Assembly (NCBI GenBank): GCA_026419785.1
Contig: JAODTK010005805.1
Location: 1 to 64,000 of the forward strand
Source: Sclerodactyla briareus
Lineage: Eukaryota > Echinodermata > Holothuroidea > Dendrochirotida > Sclerodactylidae
Length of the DNA: 64,000 nt
Reading direction: 5' to 3'
The number at the start of each line of letters is the position of its first letter. Position 1 is the first letter of the stretch. The notes beneath the pieces were generated by a model. That model was not told the DNA's origin. It ran no database searches and saw nothing but the letters and a program-made list of their open reading frames with translations. The position numbers and the translations under genes were made by a program. Positions 22,776 to 54,716 of this stretch are shown piece after piece.

Positions 22776-23329
22776 GATTGTGTTACGTTCGCGATCCCGT
22801 AGATGACTCGCCTTGAAATGGAGTGAAAATCATTTCGATGACCGATGTGCACGGGATCCAAGAACTGTAAGTGAGTAGGCATTGGTGCTTTTCTTTTGAG
22901 GGGGGGGGGGACTAAGAATAGAAATATATTCAATGAGATGATCCAACTATATGCGACGCTATACGACCATTTGTCGCAGCAGCGGCGTTAGGAGAGTTAG
23001 CATTGATGGTCGGTATCCTTAAAACTAAACGTGCAACCAACAATTCCGTTACACTAAGAGTGCAATCATTCCGGCGGGTATTGGTTCGGTGTTTTATGCT
23101 TAAAAAAGGCCAATATACGTGTCGGATTTTGGCCGGGGTCCTCGGAAATTTCATCGATTCAATCATGAAGAAGGCTCTGCCGTGAAGGGTATATTTCAAT
23201 GGACCCGGTCGGCCTCGACTCGTTTGCATATATATACAGCCCAAAATGAAAACGATGGAGCGCGCCATCTTATAGGGAAAAGGCTATTTGCATAAAATTG
23301 GGCCAAAAAGTGATTTGATTTCAGAAGCC

Positions 23330-23600
23330 AATTGAGGCTCATCCAGGCACCCCCCCTGGTCGTATCGAACTGCCATGAGCACCGGTGATAACTCCGCCTC
23401 TCTTCTCGTCATCGCCCCAGCTTATATTCGAGGGGAGGATTTACCAATCCCGACCTGCTCCCGGACCGCCATTTTACGTGACTGCTCACAGCCGACAGAC
23501 AAGAGTATTGCAAATATCCCGTAACATGAACCCATACCCAGCAAAGCCACTGCAATACAGCGGAACCAAAGTTGGGACCCTGGAGAGCCGATGCGCCCCT
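23330..23600 (-). mobile_element. SINE family S2, copy 1 (in unit A)
   Basis: It shares 'gaggctcatccag', 'cgtattga/cgaa', 'cgcctctcttctcg' and 'cctgctcccgg' with 56300-56580, and 'cgtgactgctcacagccg' with 60785-60802. The tRNA-like head seen at the right end of the later copies is not recognisable here, so this copy is probably truncated. The unit-B partner is 41470-41800. Confidence 0.6.
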
Positions 23601-24231
23601 AGCTAGCGCCACCATTACGTGTATTTGTAAGGATATGTGACCGAGCGTCACTTGAGTTCTGCCATTGTTGTCACCTGTTTCCATTACTCGAAATTGTACG
23701 TTTACTTCCCTCAGTCGTAAAGTTAACATTGCATGGTTCTTCTGAAATATGGGTTGATTGGGTTGTTGGGTGTGTGTACCTGAAATTCCCACTTTGCCAA
23801 GAACATCCGGGTCTTTGGATGGAAAAGATTTTACAGAGAGCTGCCTGTTTGATTGAAGATTCTTTGAAAGGAGGAGTATAGAACCGTGGCAAACGCAAGG
23901 TGAAGTAGCTGCGCCAATCCACCTTACGCTCTATAAGCAAAAAAAAAAACTCCAGAAACTCGATTGGCTGTTCTCTCGCTATAAGGGACTTGTCATGGCA
24001 GAAATAACTTTATATCACTAGGTAAACCTCTTGCGAGAGATCAAAGGACAGGAAATAAATTGCACGGCGTTCCGTCTGCCTAATAAATACGCATTCATCA
24101 TGAAGCCTAGTCCTAGTGTTTCATCAGTAGGTGAGAATTGCCTGCCACCAGTTAAATATGGCTAAATGGACCAGGCAGTGAAAGAACTTCTCTGAAGTGT
24201 TTGTTCATTGTTGTTATCAGCCTGCCGGCTG

Positions 24232-24383
24232 TCTATACTATATATATATAGTATAAGTTATATATATATATATATATCTTATATATATATATATATATTA
24301 TATATATATATATATATTAATATATATATATATTATATAAATATATTATATTATATATAGTATTATATAATAATATATATTAT

Positions 24384-24420
<37 letters not shown>

Positions 24421-24513
24421 CTATAGATATATATATATTTGTTTTAATTTTTAGTTTTTTCTTTTTTTTAATATATATATCTATATATAGATAATATATA
24501 TATATATATATAT
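24232..24513. repeat. long (TA)n tract, unit A only
   Basis: About 280 bp of interrupted TA repeats, including self-complementary blocks and one short T-rich interruption near 24440-24470. The unit-B site (about 42553-42566) holds only a short TATATTATATATA. Confidence 0.92.
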
Positions 24514-24845
24514 AGCGTAGCCTCGACGAATCACAAATCCCGGATGTTGTGGGTTCGTTGAAATTTCATCATCAAAGAACAAATGTAACCACACGTGACA
24601 CCGAACCACGCGTAATGGAAGGATTTTGAGGTTTATCTCGCCTACATAGGCTAGAAGGGGCCCTTACTTGGGTTGTCCGAACAAATCACATAGTCTAGGG
24701 CCTATATAGGAGGAAACAACAATTCTGTTAACTGTGGGTTTGTTGAAATTTGCGTCTCAAACGACGAAACAAATTATCAAAAACAGTACGTTACACCAGG
24801 ACGGCCCGTAATTAAAATGTCAATTAATTCCAGGTCAGTTCAACT
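24514..24845 (+). repeat. two diverged copies of a roughly 160-bp unit
   Basis: Starting at about 24520 and 24680, the same order of words occurs twice: 'gaa/caaatcaca', 'tgttgtgggttcgttg' against 'taactgtgggtttgttg', then 'aaatt', 'gacaccgaaccacgcgtaat' against 'acaccaggacggcccgtaat', then 'aggtt/agt'. Unit B carries the same pair at 42565-42895, so this inner duplication predates the outer one. Confidence 0.6.
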
Positions 24846-26139
24846 CCTCCATGCTGGTAAGAACAATTCCGGCTTGGCAGTTATAGGGCTGTTGTTAGGC
24901 ATATCCTAATTGTGTTTCGTCGAATATCACCCCATGTAAGGCATTGTAACTAAACTTCAGTTACCCAGTAGCCGCTTGCAGATTTTGACTTTGAAGACTC
25001 AATGAGAGCAACGACGATCTCAAGGTCAGTGGAAGTGAAAACTCCCTCCTTTAGACTGCATCGGATTGATTTGAAAAACTAGCAAAGATCAGTGGGAAAA
25101 AAGCGTGGTTCGATAATGGGCGAATCTCGAGTCTCAAGTTCCAGACTCCTTTTGTTTTGTGTGATCTAGTATTCACAATGATTGTTGAGTTCAAATGAGT
25201 CACGAGGGGAAACCGAACCATGCGCCCTAGAGTTCACAAAGTTAGTGCAGATTTGTATTCGAGTCCCTTATATAGTAAAAGTACTGTTACGTGTAACATC
25301 AACGAATTTCCATGTATTATTCCATTCATTTCTTCTTGAGATATCTTGCATTGGGTTACACGGCAGTGGAAAATAGCCATCTTAGCTAGTTGTCAGGAAA
25401 ACTTGCGTACCAGCGACGCAAGCATCCAACTCTGATCATTTCATGTTGAGGGAAAAGGTTATCATTATTCACATAAGATATACCCTTTACACCGTGGCAA
25501 CATGAAGGTTATAGGAGTTAATTAAGCGTTACACTCAATGGAACCAGGAATTTCAAAAACTGCGTCTAAATGACTCATTTTGAATCACAATTCGTTATTT
25601 ATACGAAGGGATTATAACAAATCATGAAAGAGAAACGTTTCCCATCAGTAGTTTCATGTATTTGTTGTAAGGTATGATGGAATAATGAGAAAATAATGCA
25701 GTTTTACAAATTTGGAGTCATCTAGTAATAACTTTGGGGTGTAGGCTGGAGCAGTCAGTTGATCAGCAATGGTGAAAAAGCGTTTCAATAGAATTAAAGT
25801 TCCATTTTTCCTGTCCTCCTATCCAGCCAGCCGAAGCTAACATTACGTTAGAATCTATTGATTTATGATATGAAAAACTACACTTTGAAAAAAAAAAAAT
25901 TGTGAAACGAGAGTATAGGTCAAAAATTCGTAAATTTCGGGAATAGGCCAGGAGGAAACGGATATATTTGTTGATGTGTTGTTATGTGTAGGCGGCTTTT
26001 TTTTTAATTCACAATTTTCTCAAAATAGAAATGATGAGTGTTGTAGTTTTGACTGAAGTTCTCATTGTAGATGAGGGGGGGTATCGAACGAGGCATTCAT
26101 TTTCCATATTATTGAGTTTTTTCTCGAAATATTCCTGTC

Positions 26140-27935
26140 ACCGTAATCCCGGAACAATTTAAAAATGGGCGGTCCACGAATCGCCCCTTTTGGTGGTGAC
26201 CCGGTTTCTTTCTGGCCTTCAAATAAGCACCACTTTGATTTTGAAAAACGGGGAAAATGAACACCAAGGGAAGAAGGAGTAAGGCTGAGCGGGTTTGGAA
26301 ATATGAACAATTTGATATATTAGCAACGAAGAATTATTCTCGGACACAATTTGGATTTTGATACAGGTCTTTTAAATCAAACTTATTTACAATCGCCGAA
26401 AAAAAATCAGCAAATAAGGAACTATTTGTCAATAGGCCTACGTACTTTTGAGTTCAATTGGGCTCCTACAGTTAACGCAAATTGCCGCTAACGGTAAACA
26501 AAGTTCCGGATATAAGAACCTTTTAGATGTGTCATTGATAAAAAAATGCCGTCGGGATATGAATTATAAGAATTTGATCGATATTACAAGATATAAATCC
26601 CCCTAAATAATCACATGTGTATCGTCAATACTGGCCCATTAATTCGACAACGTTCCGTAGCGTTTTGAAAACTAGTCTCGCTTGCCTCGCGCAGGTAAGT
26701 TTGAGTGCCCAACGTTTCATGGCCTCTCTATATTTAAATTAAGCTCGTATGTAGAATAATTCGACCTGACATGAAATATGACATGCAACCACATTATGAA
26801 ATGTTAGCTAACATTAAACATATATGTAATGAACATAGCTAATAACTATGATAATTGTCACTATTTGCTGCGATGAGCGCCCAATTCGATCCGCGATACA
26901 AATAACAGTTGGCAACCCTATGCAATGGGACGGCTGGTGGAAATGGTCTACGTGCGATTTTCTATCGATTTTTTTATTGGACCTAAAAAAGGCCGTCGTT
27001 CCCATTGTCCCATCAGAATAGTTAACATAGGCAGTTCGACCACAAAGAACCCTCTTTAAAACAGTTTAAACTGGACCAATAGACTATGGAGTTCTCATGA
27101 CCGCATTCTTGTACACCCACACTGCGTTTAAATTGGGTGAAATCTACGTTCTCTATTGAGAATTCATTTCGAAAATATTTTTTCAGCCGAAAAAGCCGTC
27201 GGTCCGGGAGAAATATCGTTTTGAATTGGACACGATGAGAAGAGGGGACTATCTACTTTCAGTTATTGATAAATGGAGTGATGCTTACCGGTTCCAGGGG
27301 TTATTCAATTCTAACGAATAATTTTTGCCGTAAATAAAGGGGAGTACACACAACATCACGTCTGGTATTAGACCTAAAGACAAAGCGCGGGTTAGTTCGT
27401 TATGGGCTATCAGACAGTTCTCTTTCCCTCCTCTCCTGGCCAATTGATCAGAATTCAGTCCCCGCCACGGACGATCTTCTATTTTCATCGAAAAAGTTTG
27501 AAACATACCGGTTTCGCTGACTCGACTGTATAACTCGGACCTAAAATGAAAATCCATCTGAAAAATGAAGATCAGAATACGGTAGATCGCACCCTTATTA
27601 TCAGACGAGTATTCGTCTTCAGAAGAATCGATTCCGTGAAAAAAAAAAAAAAAATATGCCGTGGAAATGTCATTTACATTAATTCTAGTGATTTTCTGCT
27701 TCTCGAAGCGCCGTTATATCGCAGGACTTTCCGCTAGGCCCGCAGAGTTACAGAATAAATCTCATCAGCTTGAACGAGAAAACCATCTATATTGACCCGT
27801 TGTACACGCGTTCCCAATAAGAGATTTCTGGGCTCGAGGGTCTTGCCCAACACAACGAGACAACTGTTTCGATAGACGCACAATATATAAAAGTTAAAAA
27901 CTTAAAGCCGGGCATTCGAGATACACGTAAATTCA
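26140..27935. other. block present in unit A only
   Basis: Unit B passes directly from the equivalent of 26135 ('tcgaaatattc') to the equivalent of about 27938 ('atttcaaaggc'), so about 1.8 kb is inserted in A or deleted in B, with a short shared ATTTC-like word at the joint. I find no terminal repeats, target duplication or coding support inside it. Confidence 0.6.
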
Positions 27936-28023
27936 TGACCAATTTCAAAGGCGTCGATTTCAATCTGGCGTCGGACTTGTTTTGAGCAGGATAACCCCCC
28001 CACCGTCCCCCGTTCCGTTTCCA

Positions 28024-28043
28024 CCCCCCCCCCCCCCCCCCCC
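28024..28043. repeat. run of 20 C
   Basis: An uninterrupted homopolymer inside a CCCC-rich patch. The matching place in unit B (43853-43901) has two shorter C runs with a duplicated 'cgtcgactatgcattgagc' between them. Confidence 0.85.
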
Positions 28044-28820
28044 GTCCCCGTCCCGTCGAAGTCTGTTTTGCACTTTCGTGACCTTTTTTAAACACATGCA
28101 CTCTATGTCTATATGTGTTACGAATGGCATGTGGGGTAAGCGCAATCTGCTGGCTAAAAGTCTCGTTCGAAATGCTTTGTGCGTTGTTTTCTTGGCGCCC
28201 CAATTCACGTTTCCACTGCTTTCCACCAGGGGGCATAGGCCGACATCCGTGATCTGTTGTCGATCGGAAAACGTCTTTAAGGACTTCATGATGGTCGGAA
28301 TAAATATGATAAACTTATACGTACCGGCATTTGCCCCACTTTTAGAAATTGATCCATGACGGCCTTCAAGGAATCACAGACTGAATATTACCGACACGAA
28401 TAGAAATGCACTATCTTGGTATGTGAAAACCCGTTGTGACGACCCAAAGGTAGTGGGACCTTCCATCAGTAGCGTAACGGGGTGATTGAAAGTGAGGGAG
28501 GAAGGGGTTGACAATAAGCTTAATGTACCGACATCATAGTCAGTATACCGACACTGTCAGGGGGCGGTTTGTGAGGCACATGTTGGGGGCTACTTACTTT
28601 GTTGACGTACTGAGCGGAGCGCCGCCATCGATTAGTGCGCATCGTACAAGATTTTTTTATATATAGATATTACAGATCACCAGAAAATGCCTTTCCCAGC
28701 TGCGAAAAGGGCCATTGAAGTCTTGTCCTATTTGGCACATTCATCATGTTCACACTACTACATGGACCCATACGGGGGGCGGGGGGGGCTTCAGGAGAAT
28801 TTTGGAGGCTGACCATAGCT

Positions 28821-30976
28821 CAGTGGCGTGTAGCTACGGGGGGCGTGGGGGCGGCGCACGCCACCCATGAAAGTGCCCGGCGCCCCCCCCCCAGTCGCCC
28901 CCCCCCAACTGGAAATCTGGCTGAAAAAAATTATATATCGGCCTAGCGTAGCATTTTTGTGCATCAAGGACCAACGTTATAACTTAGGGTATAATACATT
29001 TACATTTTGCCTCAAAATGTGCAACTTTTTTCAGCGAGCTGCGCGCGCAAGAGTACAGTGTGCGGCCCTAATGGCATAACCCGACATTTGGGAAGACTAT
29101 AGCCTTGGCCTTGCCAGGAAAACCACCAATGGTCCCAGGCCTTTCGACCACGGTGCACTGCGCGTGCCGGTGATGTCTAGCCTACGTGAACCAATTGTCT
29201 ATGAAACTGTCTTTATTCACGCGGTCACCTCATTCTATGTGGACTGCGACCTAATGAAACATTTACCTCGGAAAAATTCGCGCGCTACGCGCGCGTTGGG
29301 GGCTACGTTGACACAGTCATCACGGTGATATTCGTTTATAACCTTTCCACGTTGCGTAGTCTCCTAATTGAAAAAAAGAACATATTAAAACCCCCATCTG
29401 CAGTGCCACCGTGACCACCACAATGAGTATGCAGGGAAGTCAGAGGAAAATCCGAGTTTTGCCTTCCACCAAACTGCTAAAAAGGCACATCCAGATGGTT
29501 GCAACTAAGCTCGCAAAGTGTAATTTTCGATGATTTAGGCGGTATGAAAAGTTGAAATTTTCTCTCTAACCGAGAAATCGCCCCTCACCCCCTTTTCAAA
29601 ACGTATTGGAGCCTGTTTACATTCTAGCCCACTCTAGCCTGTATAACGAATACCAGCCATTGGGAAAACTTTGCACACAACCTTGGATAATTTTCACTCC
29701 AAATGGGAAAATATTTTCCCAAATTGGGTCTAAGGATCTGCCCAGTATAATGATTCAGATAATACAGTCAGGTGGCAGAAGCAATTACCAAGTTAGGGCA
29801 AACCCATTATCTTAGTATCCGGGCAACCGCATATTCAGGTTTGAGATTGGAGGGGGGGAGGGGGGACGCACTCGGCGCGCGAGGATTTTTCCAGAAAAAA
29901 AAAAGAAAAAAAAAAACGTACGGATTGGACGTTAAGTTTAAGCTTGACATGCCGCGACTAAAATCACCAGGGACGGGTAATTCCCGGCAATCTGGGAGAT
30001 CGCAAACCCAAAATTTTCTAGTACGCCCGCCGCCAACCGAGGTGGCGCTCTGCGTAGTTGATAATTTGGTCCCCCACAATCGAAGTCGTGCCCCCCCCCT
30101 TGTGCCCAGAATGAAAAAGTCTGGTGACGCCACTGCCCAAGGCACTAAAGATTTTTCGAGAGAATGGACAAATTACTGGTGCAGCAGGACCTTGAGCCTG
30201 CATGGTGCAGGATTTATGTAGATGAAACTTGTCATTCATTCGATTACCGATCGTAGAGGATGACATGAATAATCGTTGGATTTTTTTTTTAATTGTTTTT
30301 TGCCTTCTGGCATCGTCCAGACTCCAGACAGCACACATTTTCTCAGACACCTCCATAGAACACCATGGTACATGAATTCGGAACACTCAGGAAGTGCCGT
30401 TTCCGGCCATCTGGAGGGTTGTGAAGAAAATTTTCCTTGTACGCTGGGCGCAAACTCGTGGTGACCATATTTCGGGCGAACGAATTAGGAGAAAAATTCC
30501 GAGCCGGGATGAAGCAAGAATAGAAAGGATTACCCAAAATTTACCAAATAGTGCCCAATTTTTTATTGATGCTCCAAAAATGTTCGAAAAAATTGCGCGC
30601 TCCGCGCGGCAATAGTCTAGTTTCGGAGCAGTGGCTTCACGGTACATGCTTTGCAATAAAATTTAGGCAACTTTTGAGATTCAGCGAATTTTATTTCTTA
30701 TAACCCTCCAAGCCCGCCATTTTGATGTCAACAGCCTCTACAAAAAGTGGCTATGCACGGAGTGACCTCCTTAGAATAGGTCAGGGAAGTGCCACTCCCT
30801 GCCATCTAGGGGGCGACCATTTTCTCCAAAATTTCCTTTGTACGCCTCGCGCCAACCAATAGTGGCGCTCCGCGTAGGGGGGATAGTCACATTGGCGCCC
30901 CCCAGAAAAAAATTTCAAGCCCCCCCAGCGCCCCCCCCAGCGCCCCCTAATGGAAAAATCCTGGCTACGCACACTG
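28821..30976. mobile_element. nested TIR element, hAT-like
   Basis: The left end is CAGTGGCGTGTAGCTACG at 28821. The right end, read inward, is CAGTGTGCGTAGCCAGG, ending at 30976. Flanking 8-mers are CCATAGCT (28813-28820) and CCCTAGCT (30977-30984), a 7/8 match of the length hAT elements duplicate. Another inward-reading end (CAGTGGCGTCACCAG, ending at 30135) lies inside, so this is itself composite. Inside are GC-rich palindromes such as GCGCGCTACGCGCGC at about 29279-29295. No coding frame is recognised. Confidence 0.5.
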
Positions 30977-31166
30977 CCCTAGCTCCCCGTAAAGCCGCGC
31001 CTGGACACTTACAGAGTCATCAATTACGGAGAAAGATCTAAACAGATGTGAATTACACTACTCTTACCCTAGATCCAACACTCTACGAATATATTGTAGT
31101 ATTCCTATACCGCCGGATAGTTAATGACACACAATACAGTAAGTACTAGACCTGTAGACATCGCCT

Positions 31167-32010
31167 GCCGGGTAAACCGCAACGTGTATATCCCCAATTT
31201 TGATCATTCAGAGGGTGACATTGTTTGCCTTGTTTTCTTCAGAAGAGGATTTATGACCCAGTGAGGGGGATGGATGGGTTGGGGGTTCCAATGCACACAC
31301 CATGATCCGACTTATGCAAATGTCAAATCCGCAAAAAAAAAAAAAAAAAAAAACATTTTCGCCGCCGGGTGGGATAGTATTGGGGCGAAAACAAGACGCG
31401 CAAATAGCGAAAAAAAAAGAGATTCGCAAAAAAATCCAAAATGGCTGCCGTCAGAGCGGTTGGGCGACGCCCACTGTTTCACCTGTTCAAAATTGTCATT
31501 ATGGATATGTGTGCAAAGTTTGAAGGAAAAACAATGTCAAAACTGCTGAAAAATGATTTTCGCAAAAATTCAAATAGCGCCGGGTGGGCTCGTATGGGGC
31601 GAAAAAAAAGTTGGTCTTCAAACGATCGCCATGCTTCAAACGCGCAATCAGCAAAAAACCTTCGCAGAAATCCATCCAAAATAGCCGCCGTCAAAGCGGT
31701 CGGGCGACGCCCCAGTCGTTCCGACTAATTCAAGATTTTCCATCTAGGACAAAGTCATATGGATCCGACAAGGTACTGGGGAGATATTGTACAAACATTA
31801 TCCGTACAGTTTCATTAAAAATCCAAGATGGCCGCCGCCATAGTAGTCCCGCGATGCCCACATTCGAACTCATCGAATCTTATAAGGGCGAACATGTGTG
31901 CAGAGTTTGTGTCAATCGACATTGTGTTAGAGCGTTATTGCGTCAACACGAACATCTTCCGGCGGACGCGGTGGCGGCGGCGGTGACGACGCTGCCAAAA
32001 CCATTATATC
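31167..32010 (+). repeat. family R3, copy 2, with a 240-bp inner repeat
   Basis: The R3 lead motif (GCCGGGTAAACCGCAACGTG, then TATATCCCC) is at 31167-31195. Further right, 'gctgccgtcagagcggttgg' at 31444 recurs in slightly changed form at 31684, 240 bp on, and 'cgccgggtggg' at about 31361 recurs at about 31578. It ends in a 'ggcggcggcggtgacgacg' stretch, as copy 1 ends in 'ggcggcggcgg'. Frames here are translations of the repeat. Confidence 0.55.
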
Positions 32011-32255
32011 CCTGAAGTGGGGCTATAATAGCGCCCGTTAAGTCGTCAAATAGTATCATCCTAAGAATAAAGAGTATCCTAAAAAAAAGCAGTTCATATT
32101 CACTTGGTAATTCCCTTTGAACAGTCATGACCTGTAGGAAATTACAATGAATTTGTCAATAACATAGAATCCTGATTATTCATGCCGACTGGAACGATGC
32201 TTATACCAATACATCCAATACAGACTTCATTCAGTGAAATAACAGCAACAGTGAT

Positions 32256-32756
32256 CAAGTGCGGATACAGGTTTTCTCAAGGGGCGGGAGGGGGGAGGGG
32301 GGTGATAGTGATGAAATAGTGCAGACAGTACAAAACCCACCATACCAGGAGCAGTAGTGCGAAGTCCCCTCAGCGTGGGTTCAGTGCCGCCTTAGGGCCT
32401 TGCGAAGCTGTAGAATTCCAGGGCTCTCTAGTGCAAGCTGTTGCTCAATTGGGGATATTTTATCATGATTTTGATTAACGAGATTCTGGAAAATTTCAAG
32501 ATACTCATAAGATTTCTGTTGCTTCATAGAACAGACAAAAATTAGCACAGGTCTACCTGGCCGTTCGTATTGCGAAAGAATCCCGAAATGCATAATCTAA
32601 ACAGGTGAATAGTATAAGGTGTGATCAAGTCGACCGATATTACCGGGACTATTTCATAAAAAAAGAGGGACTGAAACGTAATAAATTGTGTAGCTGCTGA
32701 AAATGGGGGGTGGGGCCTGAAGCAGTAAGCCCCCCCCCCCCTTGGATCCGCGCCTG
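32256..32756. mobile_element. non-autonomous TIR element
   Basis: The left end is CAAGTGCGGATACAGG and the right end read inward is CAGGCGCGGATCCAAGG, two related terminal inverted repeats. Both ends are flanked by GTGAT (32251-32255 and 32757-32761). The 501-bp interior has G-rich and C-rich runs near its ends and no frame. A 5-bp match is shorter than the usual 8-bp hAT duplication, so either the duplication has decayed or the class differs. Confidence 0.5.
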
Positions 32757-32811
32757 GTGATCCTATTTGAGCATCAATAAAAATTCAAAAAAGGTTGCCA
32801 GTATCCTGCCG

Positions 32812-32880
32812 CAGTGGTGGCGCCAGGATTCCCCGACGAGGGGTCAATTAAATAAGAAGTTCCCCAACGGGGGGTCTAGG
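32812..32880 (+). mobile_element. 5' end of an element related to the 40575 MITE
   Basis: CAGTGGTGGCGCCAGG, followed by 'attccccgacgagggg', matches the first bases of the MITE at 40575 almost word for word. A matching 3' end with target duplication was not found. It may extend rightward to the CCGCCCCCTG end at 33500. Confidence 0.45.

Positions 32881-34707: not shown

Positions 34708-34788
<81 letters not shown>
34708..34788. repeat. (ATT)n microsatellite, unit A only
   Basis: About 27 trinucleotide units. Unit B (near 46850-46915) has an unrelated sequence before the shared 'ctaccaggaggccgg'. The poly-Ile and poly-Asn frames here are artefacts. Confidence 0.95.
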
Positions 34789-35780
34789 CTATTACCAGGA
34801 GGCCGGTGTCCAGCAGTCTGCACTTGATGATGGTGCTGTGTCCATAACCAGACCTGGGCTGACAAAGTTGATCATCTTGGGAACGTTGAAGGGATCGCCA
34901 CATGTTCCGATATATGTTAGCTAGTAGATGTTGGCTAGTTTAATGTTGTTCTTTACCGCTTACCACTACTCACTAATTCATATCCACTCCATGGTCAGTT
35001 GCGTACGCACGGGGGTCAGAACCCTCTCCCTGCCCTAACCCATTACCCAGTTATCAGACTATTTTAACAAGAAAAGAAAAACTGAGTTTTTGCAGTCCGG
35101 TAGAAAAGTTTTGCTGCGTTATTTACCGAATATTGCAGCAGCTGTGTCTAGGGCCCATAATTGTACGTATTTGCCAATAAGGAGGTGATACCATTTATGA
35201 GGGCATCTTCCATCGGTTCCCACCTCAACCCCATGCCCCACCCCTCCATGACAATCTCTGGCGGACTCTACTGTCGCATGGTAATCAACCGTTGTTACTG
35301 TTAGGTGATGATAGGTAATCACATGTAATTAATGCTTGTAGTATATGTATCCACTATTCCGGGTCGAATTTCCCAGAGATGTCGCAAAAACCATACTTCC
35401 TTCCTCGTCCAGTGCACAGTGCCATCTCTCGGTCAACGAGTCCACTCTCACTGCTCCCGTGCGTGTTGGAGTGCAGCCAGGTTAGGATGAGATCTTGGTG
35501 ACTGCGAAATAACAGCATTATGGCACCGTTGAATTGCGAACATTCGCTGTTTGTCCTGTTTGGTCCATGACGTCACTACAACGTCCTTGCCTTATCACCC
35601 ACCGAGCTTTCATAGTTCCGCAACGTATCAGCTCCAATTGTTGTTGAAAAATGTGAGCAATAGCGTGTGTAATCAGTGTAGACTACTGCTTTAACTTCGA
35701 ATTCGTTCGTTTCGTACTGAATATGTGCCACGATTCACAGAGACTTGCAGTGAATAAACTCTCATTTCTAATGACTATAC

Positions 35781-35802
35781 AAAAAAAAAAAAAAAAAAAA
35801 AA
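35781..35802. repeat. poly-A run
   Basis: About 22 A residues, unit A only. It is just left of a block conserved with B ('ggagagacacggg') and could mark the 3' end of a retroposed insertion in 35490-35780, but no target duplication is clear. Confidence 0.6.
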
Positions 35803-41395: not shown

Positions 41396-41469
41396 CTGTG
41401 ATTATAAAATGATGAGGCCGAGCCTTTGCATACGAATGGGCCAACAATTCAACAATCCAACGTTTTCAG

Positions 41470-41800: not shown

Positions 41801-44800
41801 GACCTTGCGAGGCCGATGCGCCCTAGCGCCACCATTTCGTGATATTTGTAATAGATATGTGACCGAGCGTCACTTGAGTTCTGCTCATTGACTTTACCTG
41901 GTTTCCAATCTTTCCATCACTCGAAAATGTACTTTCACTTCCCCTCAAGTCGTAAAGTTATACCGAATATTGGTTAGTCACTAGCTTCTGAAATTGGGTA
42001 GTGTACCTGAATCCTTACTCTGCGAAGAACATCCTATCTTTGGCAAGGATTCAACACAGAGCTGCCTGCTTCAGTTCGAAAGATTCAGGCTGAAAAGAGT
42101 AGAACCGAGTGCCAAAGCATAAGTGAATTAGGGTGCGCCACTCCACTTACCGTCATACTCTATAGCAACTCCAGAAACTCGATTCGGCTGTTTTCTCGCT
42201 ATAGGTTTTCAGGGCAGGAATAACTCGAAGTAAATATAACCTAGGTCAATTTTCTATTTTGCGAGAAGGTCAAAAGACAGGAAATAACGGTTCATACGGA
42301 CGTTCCAGCTGCCTAAATAAATACGCATTCGAGCATATATAGTAGTGATTACTCAGTATGTGACAATTGACTGCCAAACGTGAAATATGGCCAATGCCAA
42401 TGCACGGCTACCATTGCACAGCGCAGTAAAGAACCTTCTCTGAAGTGGTTTGTCCGTAGTTGCATGGCCGGTGGGTTAGAAGAATGAGAGTCCGACTGAA
42501 TTTAATACACGTGTATGTGCTCAGTCTAGGCGGAACATCCTTGTGTGTTAGGCTATATTATATATAGCGTAGCTTAGGCTGATCACAAATCCCGGCAGTT
42601 GTGGGTTCGTTGAAAATTTCAATTTCACTTTCCATCATCAAAATAAAAACAATTAAACCAACCGTGACACCAAAACAGTGTATTGGAAGGTGAGTTCGAG
42701 GTTAGGCTACCCGTCTAGTATGGGCTAGACGGGGCTTACTTGGGTGTCAGAACGAATCACATAGTCTAGCCTATAGGCGGAACACAATTCTGTTAACTGT
42801 GGGTTCGTTGAAATTTCATCAAACGAAGCAAATTATCCAAACGTTACGTTACACCAGAACAGCGTATTTAAAAGTCATTCAAGGTTAGTTCACTCCTCCA
42901 TGCAGGTAAGAACAATTCCGGCCCAAGCCGAAGTGGCATCGGCTTGGCAGTTATCGGGCTGTTGATTTAGCTCTCCCTAGTTTTGTGTTCGTCTAAATAA
43001 TCACCTCCATGTCTGCACGTTGTAACTAACTTCAGTACCCGGTAGCCTGCTGCAGATTTGACTCTCTAAAGTCTCAATGAGAGCAACGACGATCCCAAAG
43101 GTCAGTGGAAGTGAAAACGCCCTCTTTTAGACTCATTATCGGATTGCTTTGAAACTATGGCAAAGAGGAAATGAGCGTGTTTGATAATGGCCAAATCTCG
43201 AATCTCAAGTTCCAGGCTCCTTTCGTGTTGTGTTATCTAGTATCTACAATGACTGTTTGAGTTCGATGACGTCACGTGGTACTACGACTGTCGCCCGAGA
43301 GTTCACAGTCACACAGTAATGGCTGATTTCGTACTCCTTCATAAGTAAAAAGTGCTAGTTTTTTTTTCTCTGAGTCCAACAGGTCAAGAATGCTTGCATC
43401 AGAATATTCTCAAGAACAGGGATTTAATTTAGAGTTTTCCAGTAGCCTTCATCCCATGTCCTCCTTTCCAGCACGAAGCTATACCAAAACTGTAGTAATG
43501 TATTGTATTGACTGATATAAAAACTGCTATTGATCATGGATTTTAAAAAAATCTGTTGAAACGATAGTATTAGGTTAAAAATTAGTTAATTAGTGGAATA
43601 GGTCCCAGTGGAGGGACGAATATATTTTTTACGGTAGGCCGGCTTCTTTTTAAATTCGCGAACTGATCACCATTTTCTCCAAAATAGAAAAGATTTGGGG
43701 TTGTAATTTCGACTGGAGTTCTTCTTGTAGTAGGGGTACGAATGATGGCATTCATTTTCCATATTACTGATGCTCTTTCTTCTCGAATATTTCAAAGGCT
43801 AAATTGAGCTTTAAAAATGTAAAAATATGGCGTCGACTATGCATTGAGCGGTCCCCCCCCCCGTCGACTATGCATTGAGCAGGTCCCCCCCCCCCCCCTC
43901 CCCCATGATTGATGAAGACATTGCGCAAGCAGGTTTGTCTTATTCTCACTGTCGTATCAGTTGAACGTTTAGTTTGGGTGATGGATTTTCTGCTTGTACT
44001 ATTCAGAAGGAATCTTCAAAGTCATGTTTCGCACTTCCATCGACCTTTGAACACATGCACTCTAGGCTATATATTGTTACGAATGTCTGTGGGTTGACCG
44101 TATCTGCTTGCCTCGTCCGAGACGCTCTGTGTGTTGTTTCTCGGCACCCCTGTTCAGCTCAATAGCTCGTTTCTCACTGATCTCCACCCAGGGGGTATAC
44201 ATCCCGTGATCTGTGTCGATCAAACGTCTTTAAGGACTCTCCTGATGGTCGGATTATGAATATGCATAACTTTATACGTATACGAGTACGAGGGCCAACT
44301 AAAGTTCACGTTCTCTGGCATTTGCTTGAGCCATGACAACCTTTAAGTGAATCAAACACAGAGACTGAATGTCTACCGACAAGAGTGGAAAAATGCATAA
44401 TCTGGTATAGTGAAATACCCACTGTGACGTCACAAAGGTATGGGGAATTTTGTATGTTCCATGTTTTATTACACTTACTATAGCGCTGCGAACAACACAT
44501 TCACTGGAGGTTTACATATATACACGTAGACAAATAAGATCTATGGGAAGATTACCGAAGGTTCTTATAAACAGATACGCTTTGAGTTTTGACTTGAAAC
44601 TTTCAGCAGTATCGTAGTGCCTAACATGTATTGATGGTAGCTAGGCTGTTCCACAAATGGACCAGCGCCACTGAAGGATCTATCCCGTTATGCAAAGCCA
44701 ATGTATAACTAGCAATTAACGGTAATACACAGCCAATGCAGAAATGTACTGCAGCAGAGGAACTGGTTGGGATCTGAAGTAATGGCAAAGAGATCCTTTC

Positions 44801-45236
44801 ATTTCTTTACGTATTTCCGATGCAAAGGTACACAATATACAGCAGTATTTACGGCGTAGTATATGGGTGGCGTTCACACCATCCCCGTAAACTAGTAGAT
44901 CAAAACGACTCAACAAAACAACATGCCTGAAATGCGAAACTGGGGGTTTGGGTGTGTCCTCTTATCAATCGTGGTGGGACAGATGGACATATCGCAGCTG
45001 CTATAATGATCATCCTAATACTAAAAAATAAATAATGAAACTTATTAATCGTAACCAATGCCAGAACTAAATCTGCTCAATGCGCTGTCGGAACAAGGAC
45101 ACTCCTCCCAAGAAAAAGGATAACAACTGGTAACAAAAATAACATTGACTGGGGAAGAATAGAAATAGATTATTTTCCAGGTGTCTCTCCAAAGTGTCCA
45201 ACGATCGGAGGAATCGGAGGTCAACTGGTAGCAGGG

Positions 45237-46800
45237 ACGTATTTACACATCACCATGCACATACAACTCCATTTGAGTGTATTTCTTGCCTCGTATTCTT
45301 CTAACTTCCGTGTGCGCCCAACTGCCATAGATATTCTATTGAAATGTCGTCAACATCATCGCATGGCACCTAATTTCTACGAAAAGCTGCGCTCCGCGCC
45401 GGCGCTGTTGGCACTTATCGAATTGGGTCGGGATTGGGTAAAAATTCGGTTACAATTGGAATTTTCTGAAAGGCAGGTCTGGATAATTCACCTGACCCTA
45501 CTAGATAACATTCATACTCTTCAGAAAAATACCCTTTTCTGCGAGAAATTGAAAACTAAATTGCCACAATTCGTAGGTTAAACGGCAAAATGGGAAATTA
45601 ATTTGGATCATTTTTGGCATTTTTTTTGGGCAAATATTTGCATTGCGCTTGGCGACGGCGCTGTTGGTAACGCCCTGGTGGGGGTCCTGGGGGCGAAGCC
45701 CCGGAAAAAAAAGCACGCGATTCTAGAGCTTTTCGGGGGGCCTAGAATCCACAATACATTAATTAATAACTACAAAATAGTAGGCTTCACATAGTATGTG
45801 TTCTGTTCATGACGTTTTCGTACCCCAGTTTTGCAACTATATGGTTCTTACAACTTGGAGATCTGTTCGAACAGAAAAGGGCACGTGCAATGCAGAATTG
45901 CGATTCGGTTACTCCAGAATGCATCAACTTTTACTTGGCGACCACGTGCTTTGCCTCTGGACCCAAACAGGGACTTGGTGACTTGGGGCTTGGACTTGGT
46001 GGTCTCATGTACCCCTGGCTGGAGGCGCAATACTTCTAGCAATAGTATGACCTTGGCCAAGCCTGAAGCACCACGAAGGAGGTCAACAAGCGCCTCCTTT
46101 TCTGTACGTTCCTGAATTTTCTGGTTGAGTGAATGGTTCATGCCATTTCCCGTATCATTCTTAGCTATTGCTTTCTGGCTTTAGAATTAAAATTTTAAAA
46201 TTATAGTTTCCGAGAAACTGGCATCTGGCAATGGAAAATATTCGATTTGGGTCTTTCAGAGACTAAGTGCACCAGATGCTTGGTTTCAAAGAAATGCGCA
46301 CCGACCTAAAAAGGGGACCTTTGGCGGTCCCCTGTACCCCTGGCAGGAGATGCGAAACGTCGGAGAACAGCTAGGGAGAATTTAGCATCAGTGAAAAATA
46401 TATAAAATAAGATTTGTGATTGACTTGATTTGTAAGAAACTGGGTTTGAAGTCAACGTTTGCTTTCCTTCAAGAAACTAAGACAAACAATGAACGAGGCT
46501 CTTCGTAGAGCCGGATGAGATCTTCTCGGGTGACTTGAGAGGCACTATTTCCCACATGTTTGCGTGTGCTACTCGTCAACCGATGGTTGCGCTCCGCCGA
46601 TTATTCTAATATTTACCAGCTCTCATAAATTTACCCTGTAGTCGTGTCGATCCAAACTCCCGATACCAGGCTTCACAGATGCATACCATAATGTTATACC
46701 CCCTCATTACACCCTGTAGGCCTTCCGGAAAAAATACTGCGGTTAGTCGGAGATTTTTTTTGATATTCTATCATCTCCTGTCCTAATCTGTAGACCCAAG
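45237..46800. other. block present in unit B only
   Basis: Unit A goes from 34560 ('cgactggta') to 34797 ('aggaggccgg') with different sequence between. In B this block starts CAGGGACGTATTTAC and contains GC-rich words (GCTGCGCTCCGCGCCGG at about 45385; 'gggggcgaagccccgg' at about 45688) like those in the A-only TIR elements. A 108-codon plus frame at 45255-45581 has no recognisable domain. It is probably another TIR element plus flanking sequence, but I found no matching right end. Confidence 0.4.
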
Positions 46801-47339
46801 CTACGTTCCCGAACGTCATCTCAAATAACCATCAATGTATTACTTTTTTTTTTCTGTTTCTTTTCCTTCTAATACGAGTGTTATATCAGTGTTGTGTCAA
46901 GTAAACACACCGTTTATCTACCAGGAGGCCGGTATCAGCAGTGTGCTCTTGTCTGGTAACGAGACTTGGGCTGACAACTGGACAAAGTTGAACATTATTG
47001 GAAACTTGGAGGATCCTCGCATGATCCGATCGATGTTAACTATTTTAATGCTGTTCTTCACCGCTCAACCCTATTCGACTATAATCATTCTGCACAATGT
47101 GATTGTACTGTAAGGTAATGAATGGGTAATCACATGTTGGTATTTTAATGCCTAATTGTTTTTATGTATGGTTGAGAAAAGGTGGTGGGTATATGTAATC
47201 ACGTCGAAGTTTCCCAGAGGTTTCTGCGAATATAGGCTACGTGCTTCCTTGTGCAGTACCATCTAATGAACCTTTGCGCCATGAGCTATTTCTGAAATGC
47301 CACTCACGTGCGTGTTAGAGTTCATCCGAAAGCAATCAT

Positions 47340-49115
47340 GGCAACAAAACCATTTACAATTCAAGTTTATATAGAGCAAATGGGTATTATGTAAGACAAT
47401 TCTTCAATGAAACGAGGGGGGAGGTGCAATTCAATACCATTGGACTTTATGAAATTCATAAACGTTGACCATCTTTTCTTCTTAGATATTTCAGTGGTTT
47501 CAGCTATTCCGAAACATTGGAAGCAAACATGGGAGATATAGATGCACGTAATGTTAATACTACTGGAATGACCAGGTTCATGATGGCAGTGAAATGTACG
47601 AGATGTGTGTATATTAAAATAATTTTAGTCAAGAAGAAGCCACTATCTCTGCGCAATTTCGATGTGGGAAATGGAATATACCCCTATCAGATTTTTGACT
47701 AGAAGCAAAATTTTGGTCAATCAGTCAACATTGTCCGAGAATGAGATTCAGTATTTCCAGTTCGATTATTACATCGGATTATAGGAGTTAAAAGTAAGGT
47801 ATATTGAAGGTGTATAACGAAAGATCCTAGGGTACCTTTTTGTGGAAATTTGAGGAGGAGGGAAAGGAAAACGCTCCGCCACCTGTTTTGGTCATGTGTC
47901 TGGGTGTTCAAACATTTTGGAAAAATATTGGTTAGAAAACGGCTTTTTTTGACGGCGGAACATGAAATTATGTTTGGGTCGATGGTGAAAACAGTTTGAT
48001 ACGATTAGGCCTACTGTTTTGATATCCGATGTAATTATCTTTTCACGTGCAGTGAACAACAAGTTACCTAGTGTGAATTAATTTTTTCATGCAAATTCGG
48101 TCACAGGAAAGGTAGAACATTTTATTTTACAAACTGAGGCTAACGAGTACGAGGTCATCCTGAATAAAAGGTTAATAAGTTTTTAAAAATATATGAACGT
48201 TTTACTAATGTTGCTTCATTTATATTTTAGTGGTAAGACTAAAGAATCAGTAACATTGTCTAAAAAGAACCACCCATGCGATTGTTATATTGTAATATTG
48301 GGAAGATTGAAATAAATATGGAGGAAAAAATCCACAATTTACGGAAACTTGCTAGTGGAATTACAACTTCTCCTTCTTGCAAAGGATAATGGAGAGACAC
48401 GGGAGAGAGAGGAGAGAGGGATGGATACCGAACCTAATTAACTGGGGCCATTAACATTATACCAAAGATCAATGACATGGGTTCCAAAATACGGGATAGT
48501 AACTAGTAGAAAAAAAGGGTGGGCAATCCCCGGAGAGTGGAAGGATTATCGGCGAAAGAATGTGGAAACTTGTCAGTCCTTTCCTCCTCCAACATCGTGC
48601 GTTGAAATAATATCAAAATATGTCTGACAAACAGAAGTTCCCTCCATATTAGGAGTATAATATCATATAAATACAGGATTATTTCTAGCAGATATGCTGA
48701 CAGAATCCTTCGTTTCGAAACTTTGTACGGCTGTTCTATAAAATTTGAAACCATTCAGTCTTCCAATCTCTGAAATATACTGGGGGGAAAATAGAATTAT
48801 AAATTATTGATTTAAAAAATCACGAAATTTGGCCTGAAATCATGTTTTCGCCCCTAAAGTCCACATGCATGGAAAAAAAAAAGTTGATAAATTTATGCTT
48901 TATTAATGTCTTACGAAATTTTGAATTCATTCAGCCATGGAATCGGCGAATATCTTGAAAAATAGGAATGCCAAAATTGTTTCCCTCACAAGTTCAAGAT
49001 AGTTTCCCCTGATCTAGCAACGGTGGCTATGGCAACCAGCAGCATTGAATATAGGTTTGGGGGTGAATGGCAAACTGACCACGATATCTAGTCCGGCCTT
49101 TCCAGGACGTGAGTT
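47340..49115. other. mostly unit-B-only sequence
   Basis: 47340-48370 and 48485-49115 have no clear partner in unit A, while 48380-48480 does (35785-35880). The sequence is A+T-rich with no recognised frames or element ends. Confidence 0.4.
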
Positions 49116-49633
49116 AATAAAGGTTCCTATTTTTCGTTAATTTTATGTTCAGGACGAGAGGCCACGGAATGTCCAACTTGGTGTTCGTTGGTTATCAACC
49201 TACTAACTGGTTTGTTGTTTCAAGAACATACATGAGAGCTCTTCTGCGCGATGGGATGCTTTATCATCGAATTCTAGGAGCTAGTCCAAGTGGTTCACTG
49301 GACGCTAGGATTTAGCGAGAAAGTTATCTCCACCATTATTAGAGCTCGAAGCCTTGCAGGGGTTCGTATCTGGCATTGGTTATATAATGATCGAGTACTT
49401 TCAAAACGCCTTGACTGTTGCCGTTACCCGACAAACTCCGCTCCGAGATGCGATGATTTCGCTGCGACTGGCTTTCTTCCCTCTACTGCTGGGACAAACG
49501 CGAAGGTGTAATTTCCCGAGAGCGTCGGTTCCGTCTGGTGGGAAGACATTGGCTGGAGTCACATTGCGATCACGATGCTGTTGAGCGTCTTTGTCGGAAG
49601 GAAGCATCGTGGGGGAATGGGGGCTACACGTAC

Positions 49634-49713
49634 GCCGTGCTGGGATTGTCGGGTCCAGGCAGGGGGGGGTCTTCCTCGGACTGGAAAGGATCGAATGGCA
49701 TTATATCTTCACA
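49634..49713 (-). CDS. weak candidate exon, conserved between duplicate units (B)
   Basis: The partner of 36452-36532. CEDIMPFDPFQSEEDPPLPG is encoded from a CAG acceptor at 49716-49714, and the donor GGC|GTACGT is a better match than in A. Indels after about codon 15 move the end of the exon into a different phase from A, so at least one copy is broken or contains a base-calling error. Confidence 0.2.
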
Positions 49714-52700
49714 CTGGCTCGGTTTAGCTCTTTCCACCCGGCGAGCTTTGACCAATGCAAGTAGGCCAGGGAGGGGATCTCTTCTCTACCCGCTAATTTA
49801 AAGCAAGTAACGCTTTGTGAGAATTCAACAAAACTTCAGGCAATTTGAGCAATAACAGCAAAATAGCGTTACTGCAAATTTAGTAGTACTGCGTTCACGC
49901 TCAGCTGTCTAAGATACGTGATAAGCTGGCTGCTACGTGTACGTAAAACACATTTCATGTGTTATGATTGTTCGGCCCTGCAGTCCACCGCGACCAGAAC
50001 CACCACCGCAAACCGGACGAGGATCGGCGGGGAAGGGTCAATTGCATGCGAAGGCCTGTAAAAACCCATATTGTAGAAACAACCGATTAAGTTAATAACT
50101 TACTTGAACCGATAATGTAGAAAAAAAAGATCGATAATGTAAAACCTTCTTTACCGTTAATGTAAAAAAAACTCTTTCTAAAGACTCACCACTTACTGTA
50201 TGCTGTATGACCTAGAGCCACACAGTATGTATAAATGTGTTTATGATGCATGTGTGTAATGTGGGTCATTTCATAAACGCCGAATGGGGGCTGATGGCGT
50301 TCGTAATCCACTCTTGACGAGATGTGATCGAAGGTGGTTGCAATAGGGTGAGGCGTGTCTTAATCTGTCTGAAAAAATGGCCCTCTCTTGACGTCACATG
50401 ACCAGCGAGTGGCGGCGACTTGCTAACCAGCAGTACGTTTACTATGATTATTCATGCCTTCGGAGGTGCTTAAATTAGGGACACATGCTGCGGACAAATA
50501 AATAAGGCCAAACACAGGCATAATTGGTGTTATTGGTTCCTGAAATGTTTTGTCTTTGCGACGCCCAATAGCGTCTCCATTATCATATCCCGACAACACT
50601 GTAAGAGTTCGGGGATATCATAGTTCTGGGGGGCTGTTCCGCCGCCGCATCCGTCTCCGCCGTCCGCCGCCGCCGTCTCCTATCGCCACGCCGAAAATGT
50701 AAGCGTTCAGCGCAATTACTTTTAACGCTTTGTCCGATTGATCTGATACTTGATACACCTGTCCGCCCAGTACAGAATCGCGAATTAGTTCGAATGGGCA
50801 TTACTGTACGTCTGCTGCTCTCTACTTTGCAGGTAATGCTTACGCGAAAATACACCAAAGCCAATATATAGGTGCTCTCTGATCGGCCCTTACTCTCGTC
50901 TTCGCCACTTGACTTTCCTCTGCTTCAAACCTGTAACCGGTGGCTAGTGCAACTGCTGCGAATTCGGTGATCTGATTGGTTACCAGTTCCTTTGAGCCTA
51001 GAAACTCAATCAACAAATCAACAAAAAGGAAACTATTGCATGTGCATTTTCATTCCAGTGAAGAAAAAAAAAATGCGTGAAAAACCGTGTAGTAATGACA
51101 CATGGTTCAATTAGTTCAATTATTATAACGTACTGAATAGTGGGATCTTGAAACAATCGCTGCCAATGTCGCCGAGATATGTTTTTCCCGAAGAACAATT
51201 TTCACTTAATCGACAATTTGCAGACGGAGTTCCATATGTTGCACGGCTTGGTCATGCAGGATATACCGCGAATTATTTTCCATCGCCTAAATGTCACTCG
51301 TTTCGTGTCATCAATGTGTGTTTTCTACGTTTCCGTTCATATTGCGGTTTATAGATATTCTGGGAAGGAAAGCTCAGAAAATACAACTAGAAATATGTAT
51401 TCAGTGGAATGCATTCTCAGTCTCGTGGTCGAATTGGCTGATCGTTCCATTAGTTGGTCATTATGTAGTTTTGAATGAATAACCTATACTACGGTAGGGA
51501 CAGCAGCTCAAAATACATTGGAAACCGATCCGACCCCGGAATGGGTTTTTGTTTCGAGGGCGCCGTGACATGCAATGTTACAGAGCGGCAATCGAATAAT
51601 TGGGCCGACAGAACAGAATTACTCATCTCCGGTAATATGTTAGGTAAAAGGAAATGTAAGTGCGGACGTAGCATTCACGTCGACTTATATGGCTACGCGA
51701 TCTGTTTGCTTAGAACTGAGTCGAAGTCGCGGATCCGGGCATGCTCCGAGGGTAATTACCTGATCGTCTTGGGGGTGAAAACATGGTGAATCAATTCTTG
51801 AGAACATTCTCGAGAGCGTTCATACAATCACTAATCCCGTGGTAGTACTGAACGTCAAAACAACTCGAACAGATGTCTCTAATGGAATACAGAATCTATA
51901 AATAACTACACGCTCTGCCGCCTCGTACCAGTGCTGACGGATGTGTCTATTTCCTTGACGATATGATTTTTTTTTTTTTTCAAAGCCGACGCGGTTAGGG
52001 CAAAACGCACAAACACTCCGCAAACGACCGGACATTGGGATACGTGGGTAACAATGAAAAGCACCTTAACAACTAATAAAAACATACTACACCGGACCTT
52101 GTAATGACTGAGAATAAGAAGTGATTGAGTACATGAACCCTGTGTTTTGGAGACAGTTGACTGGGTCAACAGAGGGTCAATGCAGAAATAGCAAGGGTAG
52201 GTCCAGAATATTTGATATGATCATCAAGTTGCAGTTTAGTGTGGAGTTTTTCGGTTCGTTCCGAAGCGGGACATTTTTGCGTTCTGTTAGACGGGAAGTA
52301 CACTCTAAAAAAATTTCGGAGTGCCTCCAGGATTGAAATAAAGCTCATGGCATACACATTTCAGGCCTCAGATGGCAAAAGTTGTGTGGGATATATAGGG
52401 TATCGGCATTATGGTTGAGTAATATTGAGTAATTTGACATTTGAAGACCTAAGATGACCTCTGAAACGGCAATTGAAAAAGAACCTAATGTCCACGTCAT
52501 TAAGTTAATCAATTTGAGGCTCATGGCCATGTAACAGGTTTTCTTCAAACTAGCTCAGGTGGAAGAAGGTATATCAAAATCACATATTACCCAAATTGAA
52601 ATATTATTCTACGTTGGTGAATTATTATCGATTATCCAGGAATAACTCGATATTGGACTCACTTGCTTTGAGTTGCGACAGTTTCACGTCTCATCCAAGA

Positions 52701-53644
52701 CGCATCATCAAGCCGATAAAACTAAGTATTCACTCAGAAAGGAAGGAACCTATTTAGGAAGTTTCAAAGTTGTATTCGGAATCCACCCACTGTTTCGTTT
52801 GCTACAGGGTTGCCAGAAATAAGTAGTACATGTTTCACATTGATTTTGCATTACAAGGGACCTACAGTTCTCCCCGGAACGCCTCAAGACGAATTCTAAG
52901 GGAGGCGAAATGACCAATGAAGTCAAGTTCTCCTTACATGACAATTGGCCATTGGGCAATGTTTAGAACATCGGATTGGTTTGGCCTGTACTGCGACTGT
53001 CGGCATGCATACCAGCGAAACAGGCACCAGATTATTCTGAAGAGGGTGGCGACCGACCCACACACTTGGATCGTTTTGATCAACGTAAACCAAAATCTCA
53101 ATGGAAACACATTAACAAGAGCACAACCTCTGGGGGGTTTATAGCTGGATTAGTACCCCCTCCACCTTGATGGGGCCTCCGCTCACAATGCCTTCCAAAC
53201 ACGTGATTGTTCGGTGCATTTTTAGCGATCCCGGTGAGGTGAATGCCTAATAGGAGAATATGTTGTGACTAGCACGAACAACCAGAAGTGAAATTTAGTA
53301 ATTGGACACATTTAACTGACTTCGAAATTACCTTGCCTCATGTTCGGAGACATCGAGTGCCGATGCGGGCCCAACTACAAACTGTGGGCGCGGGTCCCCG
53401 TTAATCAGTCGCCCTACCATCGCGTGAACGGTTTCCAGGCGCTCGAATAAGCCCAGGGCCACGTACCTACTGCATCTCCGGTGGCGCACCACATTCAAAC
53501 GTGCCGATCGAGACCAGTTGAGGAGGGAGGAGTGGAGTGGCCACTATAGTACCCGACACTCGCATGAAAGTGCAGATCGGAAATCAGTTCTCTTAGTCTT
53601 TCCACGGAAGACGACAGCAGGTAAAACCTGGCATGGAAGAGGTT

Positions 53645-54716
53645 AGGAGAGAATAGAGAGAGAGAGAGAGAGAGAGCTTGTTAACATTAAACTTGAAAAA
53701 CCTGGCAGGTGTAAAGAGTAGGATGGAAACAGGTCTTGGACATCTTATTTGGAATACCAGAATTTTGACGAGTGGTCGCCTCCGGGAAGGGAGGAGGAGG
53801 AGGAAATGGGGGAGGAAGGAAAACGATACTCCAAGATACGGACGAAATGGGCTCTGGGAGAGTCCGCAACGAATAAACCTGTCAAAGGATCATAGTTAAT
53901 AGTACGAAAGCGGAGAAAAGGCCAAGTGTTTTGAGAGGCACGTTTAGCAATGTCATTAATATGCGACATCCAACTCAGATTCAAAACAAACGTAACCCAA
54001 GCTTAAGAGTCTGAAGAGTTTCAAGCTGAAAACCGTCCATAGTAATACATGGCAGAATTGTGTCGCCCGCGCAGCCAATGTTCTTGTGGAATTTTTCGGG
54101 ACGAGGTCGTCTCTGCCCCATTGCGTAACAGTAGAGAGGTTTTTTTTCATTGTGGGGATTACGCGAGGCAGCTGTAGGGGGGGGGGGGGGGGGGGGGAGG
54201 GGTGAAACCTGATGAAATGCTTGTATCATCAGCGAAGGAAAACACTGAGCACGAGACAGCACCAAGAAGGTATTGAGGGAGAGCAGAAACAAGGTGGGAG
54301 CCCGGAGAGGTCACAGACCCTCGGGCCGGCACACCAGCTGTAATGGGATGAACTGAAGAAGTGAAACCATCAACACAGACAGCTACGACCGATTGTAAAG
54401 GAAGTCGGAGATCTATCTGATCAGAAGATGGAAGAGGCCGAACACCGAACACAGTAGCTTGACGATGAGTCCACAGTACCATACACGGTCAGAACCCTTG
54501 GAGTTGTCTAGAGCAATCACAAGCGGCGCTTCACCAGCCTGAGTACAGAACCCGTTGTATATGTAGGTGGAAAAAGGCAGACGGTCACCCGGGCGTTGAC
54601 ATGGCTTCGTGGAAACCATATTCCGATGGACAGAGAGCAACATATTACCTTCTGGGTAGGACAGAAGTGGGTTCAGTGATGAGAGATTCAATTCTCCCTA
54701 GATTATTTCTCATGCA
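53645..54716 (-). pseudogene. non-LTR retrotransposon reverse transcriptase, decayed
   Basis: Read on the minus strand from 54716 leftward, the pieces come in the order expected for a LINE reverse transcriptase. First is a fingers motif ALDNSKGSDRVW (compare the family's usual D-x-SKAFDRVWH). Then comes VDGFTSSVHPITAGVP followed by RGS, corresponding to GVPQGS. Next is SFADDTS, the catalytic Y/FADD, coded near 54223-54243. Last is a thumb with LSWMSHINDIAKRASQ. The order and the WG.DNLVEFN-like and HINDIAKRASQK-like words resemble the Jockey/CR1 group. The motifs sit in three different frames and a 21-base G run (54177-54197) splits the gene, so it is dead or badly base-called. A TC/AG microsatellite marks its 3' side at 53655-53676. 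Confidence 0.8.
54177..54197. repeat. run of 21 G inside the RT remnant
   Basis: A homopolymer at the same place as the 13-G run at 41340-41352 in unit A. The length difference is typical of slippage or base-calling error. Confidence 0.9.

Follow-up and report, generated by a model that had tools for sequence, protein, structure and literature searches.

Segmental duplications are usually defined as copies of at least 1 kb that share at least 90% identity. In an assembly, two similar segments side by side can also arise as a false heterotype duplication, as described by Ko et al. 2022 (PMC9516828). According to passages of that paper on recent long-read assemblies, 61-92% of false duplications lie on one scaffold, and the copies are most often separated by a gap, with some joined by wrongly filled sequence (PMC9516828). 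Amphioxus, called exceptionally heterozygous, is given 3.2 to 4.2% in the relevant section of PMC12862219, and a passage of PMC8270832 gives a neutral diversity of 8 to 20% for a few animals. Divergence alone therefore cannot decide between tandem copies and haplotypes.

We analyzed a window of 64,000 nucleotides, bases 1-64,000 of contig C3048 (359,578 bases), from an assembly that totals 319 Mb over 3,171 contigs. An earlier note had found in it two adjacent, related segments and left open whether they were a real tandem duplication or joined haplotypes. Of these two readings the tandem one is the better supported, by flanks with no second full-length copy among the candidates scored, a gapless junction across which no long repeat was seen, the uneven divergence and the kilobase blocks private to one copy. 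From the sequence, the two segments, A and B, are probably a genuine, old, head-to-tail tandem duplication of about 12-18 kb, rich in repeats, whose copies would lie on one chromosome.

Results

Two adjacent colinear copies

The duplicated unit is present in the window as two copies separated by a short junction:

23287-41393 (18,107 bases), plus strand: copy A, from ordered alignments to B
41394-41424: junction between A and B, 31 bases outside both alignments, with no N
41425-54253 (12,829 bases), plus strand: copy B, from ordered alignments to A

Sensitive blastn gave 10 alignments between A and B at E<=1e-5. All 10 are on the plus strand and keep their order, with neighboring alignments overlapping at two places. 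The colinear segments of the earlier note, 23270-41395 and 41410-54250, thus stand, their limits being off by at most 17 bases. The spans of the aligned blocks make up 47.5% of A and 67.4% of B. As controls we used B reversed without complementing it and B shuffled in 25-base blocks. With the reversed B, blastn found no match to A, and there was none to any of three shuffles. The A/B matches sum to 9,726 bases versus 370-1,117 in comparisons that involve the flanks, where blastn found three matches (688 bases) between the left flank (2-20000) and B, two (370 bases) between A and the right flank, and four (1,117 bases) between the two flanks. These flank matches are dispersed repeats.

The 2 kb to the left of A scored 360 against the 2 kb to the left of B (20 shuffles, mean 347, maximum 422), and the 2 kb to the right of A scored 378 against the 2 kb to the right of B (20 shuffles, mean 399, maximum 472). 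As both local scores are within the range of their shuffles, homology stops at both outer ends. The copies are therefore adjacent, colinear and in direct orientation, 31 bases apart, with flanks outside the homology. An arrangement of unique sequence, A, B and unique sequence, in which each flank runs on into just one of the copies, would also be left by an assembler that placed two diverged alleles end to end and collapsed their flanks. We consider this unlikely. It would agree with the false duplications in the passages of PMC9516828 cited above, which are mostly on the same scaffold and in some cases have wrongly filled joins.

Junction and unit ends

The longest exact match of the 31 junction bases is 8 bases to the 0.5 kb outside either unit end; in the whole of A it is 10 bases. 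We saw no long repeat spanning the A/B junction, and the 64,000-base window is free of N. With no evident homology at the breakpoints and no N, the junction has the anatomy of a tandem duplication joined without evident homology. Both observations speak against alleles placed end to end, as no long shared repeat was seen that could cause a false overlap and a gap usually, if not obligatorily, separates false duplications in the passages of PMC9516828. The 31 bases outside both alignments, in an assembly rich in errors, would also suit a chimeric join, in which paralogous segments that are apart in the real genome were fused by a chimeric read or a misassembly. Such a join is improbable, since it hardly explains why both flanks stop at homologous unit ends, whereas a tandem duplication does.

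Both ends of the unit are in or beside repeats:

23311-23568, minus strand: left end of A, dispersed repeat resembling a SINE, from dispersed genome copies, with tRNA likeness and strand judged by eye
41455-41796 (limits approximate), minus strand: the same SINE-like repeat at the left end of B, from dispersed copies and the A/B alignment
40880-41393, minus strand: right end of A, fragment of a decayed LINE (reverse transcriptase), aligned to B 53656-54253 at E 4e-60
53656-54700 (right limit approximate, by eye), minus strand: the same LINE fragment in B

The left end of the unit is some 20-25 bases beyond the tail of the SINE-like repeat, which is present in both copies, and the 20-25 bases past the tail are common to A and B. 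The repeat in A has an internal deletion of about 75-80 bases. These bases are retained in B (a 74-base gap in the A/B alignment) and in the other genome copies for which both halves are listed. A further copy of the SINE-like repeat is found at 56303-56590 (limits by eye), about 2 kb to the right of B.

The right end of the unit is inside the minus-strand LINE fragment. In A the LINE is cut at the FADD motif, while in B it continues past the unit, with 54254 to about 54700 outside the duplication. By eye, the LINE pieces of the window contain what we take to be reverse-transcriptase motifs A, B and C, and they had no match in Pfam or in a search of solved structures. We fetched four genome stretches that match the window LINE and ran four of their ORFs, from three loci, against Pfam. 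Three of the four, coming from two of the three loci, match RVT_1 (PF00078) with E values of 2.8e-6, 2.3e-4 and 0.0099; none of these matches reaches the curated cut-off. For the reverse transcriptase that the earlier note saw running out of B there are the three motifs read by eye and the RVT_1 matches of related loci, though neither Pfam nor the structure search recognized the window pieces.

Private blocks and a hAT-like element

Large blocks present in one copy and absent from the other, noted before, were mapped between the chained alignments, two only in A and two in B:

28463-33835: largest A-only block, 5,373 bases versus 76 in B, holding a hAT-like element
26180-28053: A-only block, 1,874 bases versus 174 in B
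45231-46831: B-only block, 1,601 bases versus 136 in A
47100-49115: B block outside the chained alignments, 2,016 bases versus 916 in A
28821-30976 (2,156 bases), no strand assigned: hAT-like element, in A only, from its ends, its target duplication and fetched relatives

hAT transposons have an 8-bp target duplication and CAGTG-type inverted ends. Both features are found, with imperfections, at 28821-30976. The target duplication, CCATAGCT at 28813-28820 and CCCTAGCT at 30977-30984, is alike at 7 of 8 bases, and the inverted ends, CAGTGGCGTGTAGC and, as reverse complement, CAGTGTGCGTAGCC, are imperfect and of the CAGTG type. All seven relatives that were fetched align to the element. Six begin at 28809-28821 in one alignment and the seventh, aligned in two pieces, begins at 28821; six end at 30972-30987. 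With the best 40 of 655 candidates scored, the element has 42 match rows in the genome, itself included. No ORF longer than 152 aa was found inside it. Its sequence features indicate that it is probably a hAT-like, non-autonomous element. Elsewhere in A, at 24234-24514, about 280 bases form a (TA)n-like array; the corresponding gap between alignments is 83 bases in B versus 267 in A.

These blocks bear on whether a single haplotype was assembled twice through read errors. Such homotype duplications are described in passages of PMC9516828, and base errors are frequent here, yet errors do not give one copy kilobase blocks of its own or a transposon flanked by a target duplication. On the sequence this explanation is so unlikely as to be practically negligible.

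Uneven divergence between the copies

Ordinary alignment of A and B depended strongly on gap costs, with 21% versus 13% mismatches in two settings. We therefore turned to a pair hidden Markov model, whose estimates came close to the true values in two simulated cases. Over 13 blocks with 6,681 aligned pairs, it gave 12.2% substitutions overall and 10.5 indels per 100 pairs, 8.8 of them short and 1.7 longer. Two parts of A are referred to below:

33836-36340, plus strand: most diverged aligned part of A, with 18.2, 22.9 and 25.8% substitutions against B 44527-49530
39302-40396, plus strand: longest well-kept block, with 10.3% substitutions

Substitutions in single blocks span 3.2% (38942-39133, 179 pairs) to 25.8% (35910-36340), and the block adjoining the latter, 36341-37084, has 6.6%. 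The unevenness across the 13 blocks is large (chi-square 162.6, 12 degrees of freedom). Leaving out the three highest blocks, a selection made with their values in view, gives a chi-square of 35.3 with 9 degrees of freedom. The estimate of about one difference in ten bases made previously holds for substitutions in the longest good block, but four of the 13 blocks are lower, at 3.2-9.0%. Most of the duplicated unit has about 5 to 12% substitutions, from which we infer that the duplication is old. Substitution identity is 87.8% over the 6,681 pairs and 89.9% when only the ten lower blocks, a choice made after the fact, are counted, so both figures, which assembly errors lower, are under the 90% of the strict definition of a segmental duplication.

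Halved between the copies, A/B substitutions come to about 6.1% per copy, or 5.1% when only the ten lower blocks are counted. On its own branch the hAT-like copy in A shows 3.7%, a figure that includes errors. This small difference is what one would expect if the element was inserted after the duplication. Taking 3.7% as the bound on substitution errors and subtracting it twice from the A/B figures leaves a true divergence of at least about 5% for the whole alignment, 2.8% for the ten lower blocks and 14% for the three highest. A low true divergence may be within the range of very polymorphic species, which counts against a tandem duplication. Alleles placed end to end would gain from this, as hyperdiverse animals reach 8 to 20% neutral diversity in the cited passage of PMC8270832. 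The three blocks that differ by 18 to 26% point the other way. Alleles would hardly reach such values, and blocks at 26% next to 7% would perhaps suit old paralogues with gene conversion.

Base errors in the assembly

To what extent the indels between A and B are real was gauged in two ways. Eight hAT-like copies, compared in all 28 pairs, differ by 6.4% substitutions and 7.4 indels per 100. The correlation of indels with substitutions is -0.36, so the two do not rise together. Per copy, indels per 100 bases are 5.3 for the hAT copy in A and 1.6 to 5.1 for the others. Twice 5.3 is 10.6 indels per 100, versus 10.5 between A and B.

The second gauge is HSP70. Thirteen of the 14 HSP70 matches in the assembly are on contig C2424 and one, weak, is on C11. 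The former make up a pair of genes:

C2424:17556-48204 and C2424:91670-124710 (L025-L036): two HSP70 genes with introns, arranged in tandem at a distance of about 74 kb

By eye, both copies are frameshifted in otherwise well-conserved exons. The frameshifts, together with the lone and weak further match on C11, suggest that base quality is poor or the assembly incomplete. The pair has 42 gap openings in 865 aligned pairs, about 4.9 per 100, in four exon-spanning stretches with end gaps included. By this rate, which as a gauge of error assumes that both copies are working genes, only about half of the A/B indels are errors. The stretches are unequal, with 2.5 and 4.3 per 100 in two and 10.9 around exon 1, and a non-coding stretch near exon 1 has 12.4 gap openings per 100. 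Hence either the contigs are not of even quality or some of the indels in non-coding sequence are real. Assembly error is probably the source of about half to all of the A/B indels.

The HSP70 frameshifts, the indel rates of the pair hidden Markov model and the rate in the hAT copies back the earlier suspicion that base-calling indels inflate the count of differences. That many indels are errors, so that true divergence is below the apparent one, also favors alleles placed end to end. Homopolymer errors were rejected as the cause of the indels: 187 of 476 indels of at most 3 bases (39%) are in a homopolymer context, below the 48% expected from the share of bases equal to a neighbor. We also rejected the HSP70 pair as a second case of joined haplotypes, as its amino-acid differences, judged by eye, look like those of ordinary tandem paralogues. 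In the examined stretches, small indels make gene models, pseudogene calls and divergence dates unsafe without correction. A measure of indel errors in the assembly is a by-product of value.

Copy number of the surroundings

No second full-length copy was found of the left flank at 16200-19300 (best 40 of 1,852 candidates scored), of the right flank at 57000-60200 (best 40 of 2,127) or of a probe from another contig, C2424:35045-37945 (best 40 of 1,093). All three probes outside A/B are thus single among the candidates scored, and no allele pair was found. Since the same genome search recovers B, with 71 to 80% identity, it should also have brought up an allele several kilobases long, but short diverged matches can escape. 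A species polymorphic enough for its alleles to be assembled separately would be expected to show many second copies. As second copies are not common in the probes, allelic A and B would have to be an isolated island. With no allelic copy of a flank among the candidates scored, alleles placed end to end would require an island of divergence with sharp bounds.

The sole other long match of block 39302-40396 is B 52314-53424 (best 40 of 122 candidates scored). Just two copies are what alleles would also give, and on the same search a dispersed large element was rejected. This block holds a dispersed repeat at about 39745-39840. For the probe 33836-36340 even copy B is absent from the best 40 of 922 candidates, making this a weak test for other copies. 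In the right flank there are two more dispersed repeats, at 57790-58565 and 59390-59935, whose long matches to other copies have about 72 to 82% identity.

An island of this kind could be real. A and B would then be anciently separated haplotypes that differ by 5-25% between near-identical, collapsed flanks, maintained, for instance, by long-term balancing selection or by suppressed recombination, and joined by the assembler. We hold this to be highly improbable. If A and B were two haplotypes, they would be a hyperdivergent allelic island.

For a tandem duplication one may ask for further units. None was seen in the examined part of the next 40 kb of the contig, which counts against a tandem origin. 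An expanding array was rejected, with only three short repeat matches in that part.

Coding content

Neither A nor B contains a stop-to-stop ORF longer than 180 aa. The window has 414 stop-to-stop ORFs of at least 55 aa, and the 24 of these run against Pfam gave no convincing match. At E<=0.1 three of the 24 had weak matches, four in all and below the cut-off, which were taken for chance: Colicin-K immunity (E 0.0097) and Gp22 (E 0.099) at 51152-51475, DUF2972 (E 0.086) at 19311-19745 and POLQ_helical (E 0.0083) at 61533-61817. With so many errors, the ORF and Pfam search could overlook a gene that false indels had broken. No Rfam RNA reached gathering scores in the window, and ARAGORN with the bacterial code found no tRNA. 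Among the ORFs tested there was no gene showing selection on both copies, which counts against a tandem duplication. The unit is apparently non-coding and filled with transposons. Its likeliest role is none, that of a neutral, decaying tandem duplication.

Runs of G or C of at least 8 bases number 25 in the window, versus about 0.4 expected from base composition. Examples are those at 54177 (21 G), 28024 (20 C), and 7952 and 12840 (16 C each). With its SINE-like repeats, LINE remnants and hAT-like elements, together with the intron-bearing HSP70 genes, the content is that of an animal-like eukaryote. A search for COX1 gave no match.

Discussion

We propose that the ancestral segment had the SINE near its left end and the LINE fragment at its right end before it was duplicated. 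One breakpoint would have been some 20-25 bases outside the SINE and the other inside the LINE. Their joining, by a process such as end joining or template switching, would have left about 31 bases of filler and no evident homology. The copies would later have drifted apart through the hAT-like insertion in A, the partial deletion of the SINE in A, and substitutions. Gene conversion may have acted in parts, which would explain the neighboring blocks at 26% and 7%. A search of the literature for tandem duplications by unequal crossing over in invertebrates, matching narrow terms, found none.

The locus resembles the false heterotype duplications of Ko et al. 2022, as described in passages of PMC9516828, in having diverged copies side by side on one contig of an error-rich assembly. 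It differs from them in that there is no gap, no second copy of a flank was found among the candidates scored, and divergence is very uneven. As a duplication A/B is ordinary; if real, it adds another case to the old tandem duplications that have repeats at their ends. It differs from the usual definition of recent segmental duplications in its identity of 87.8%, below 90%. Like tandem segmental duplications, it consists of adjacent head-to-tail copies of more than 10 kb with flanks outside the homology, has its breakpoints in or beside repeats, and shows drift by transposon insertion and deletion.
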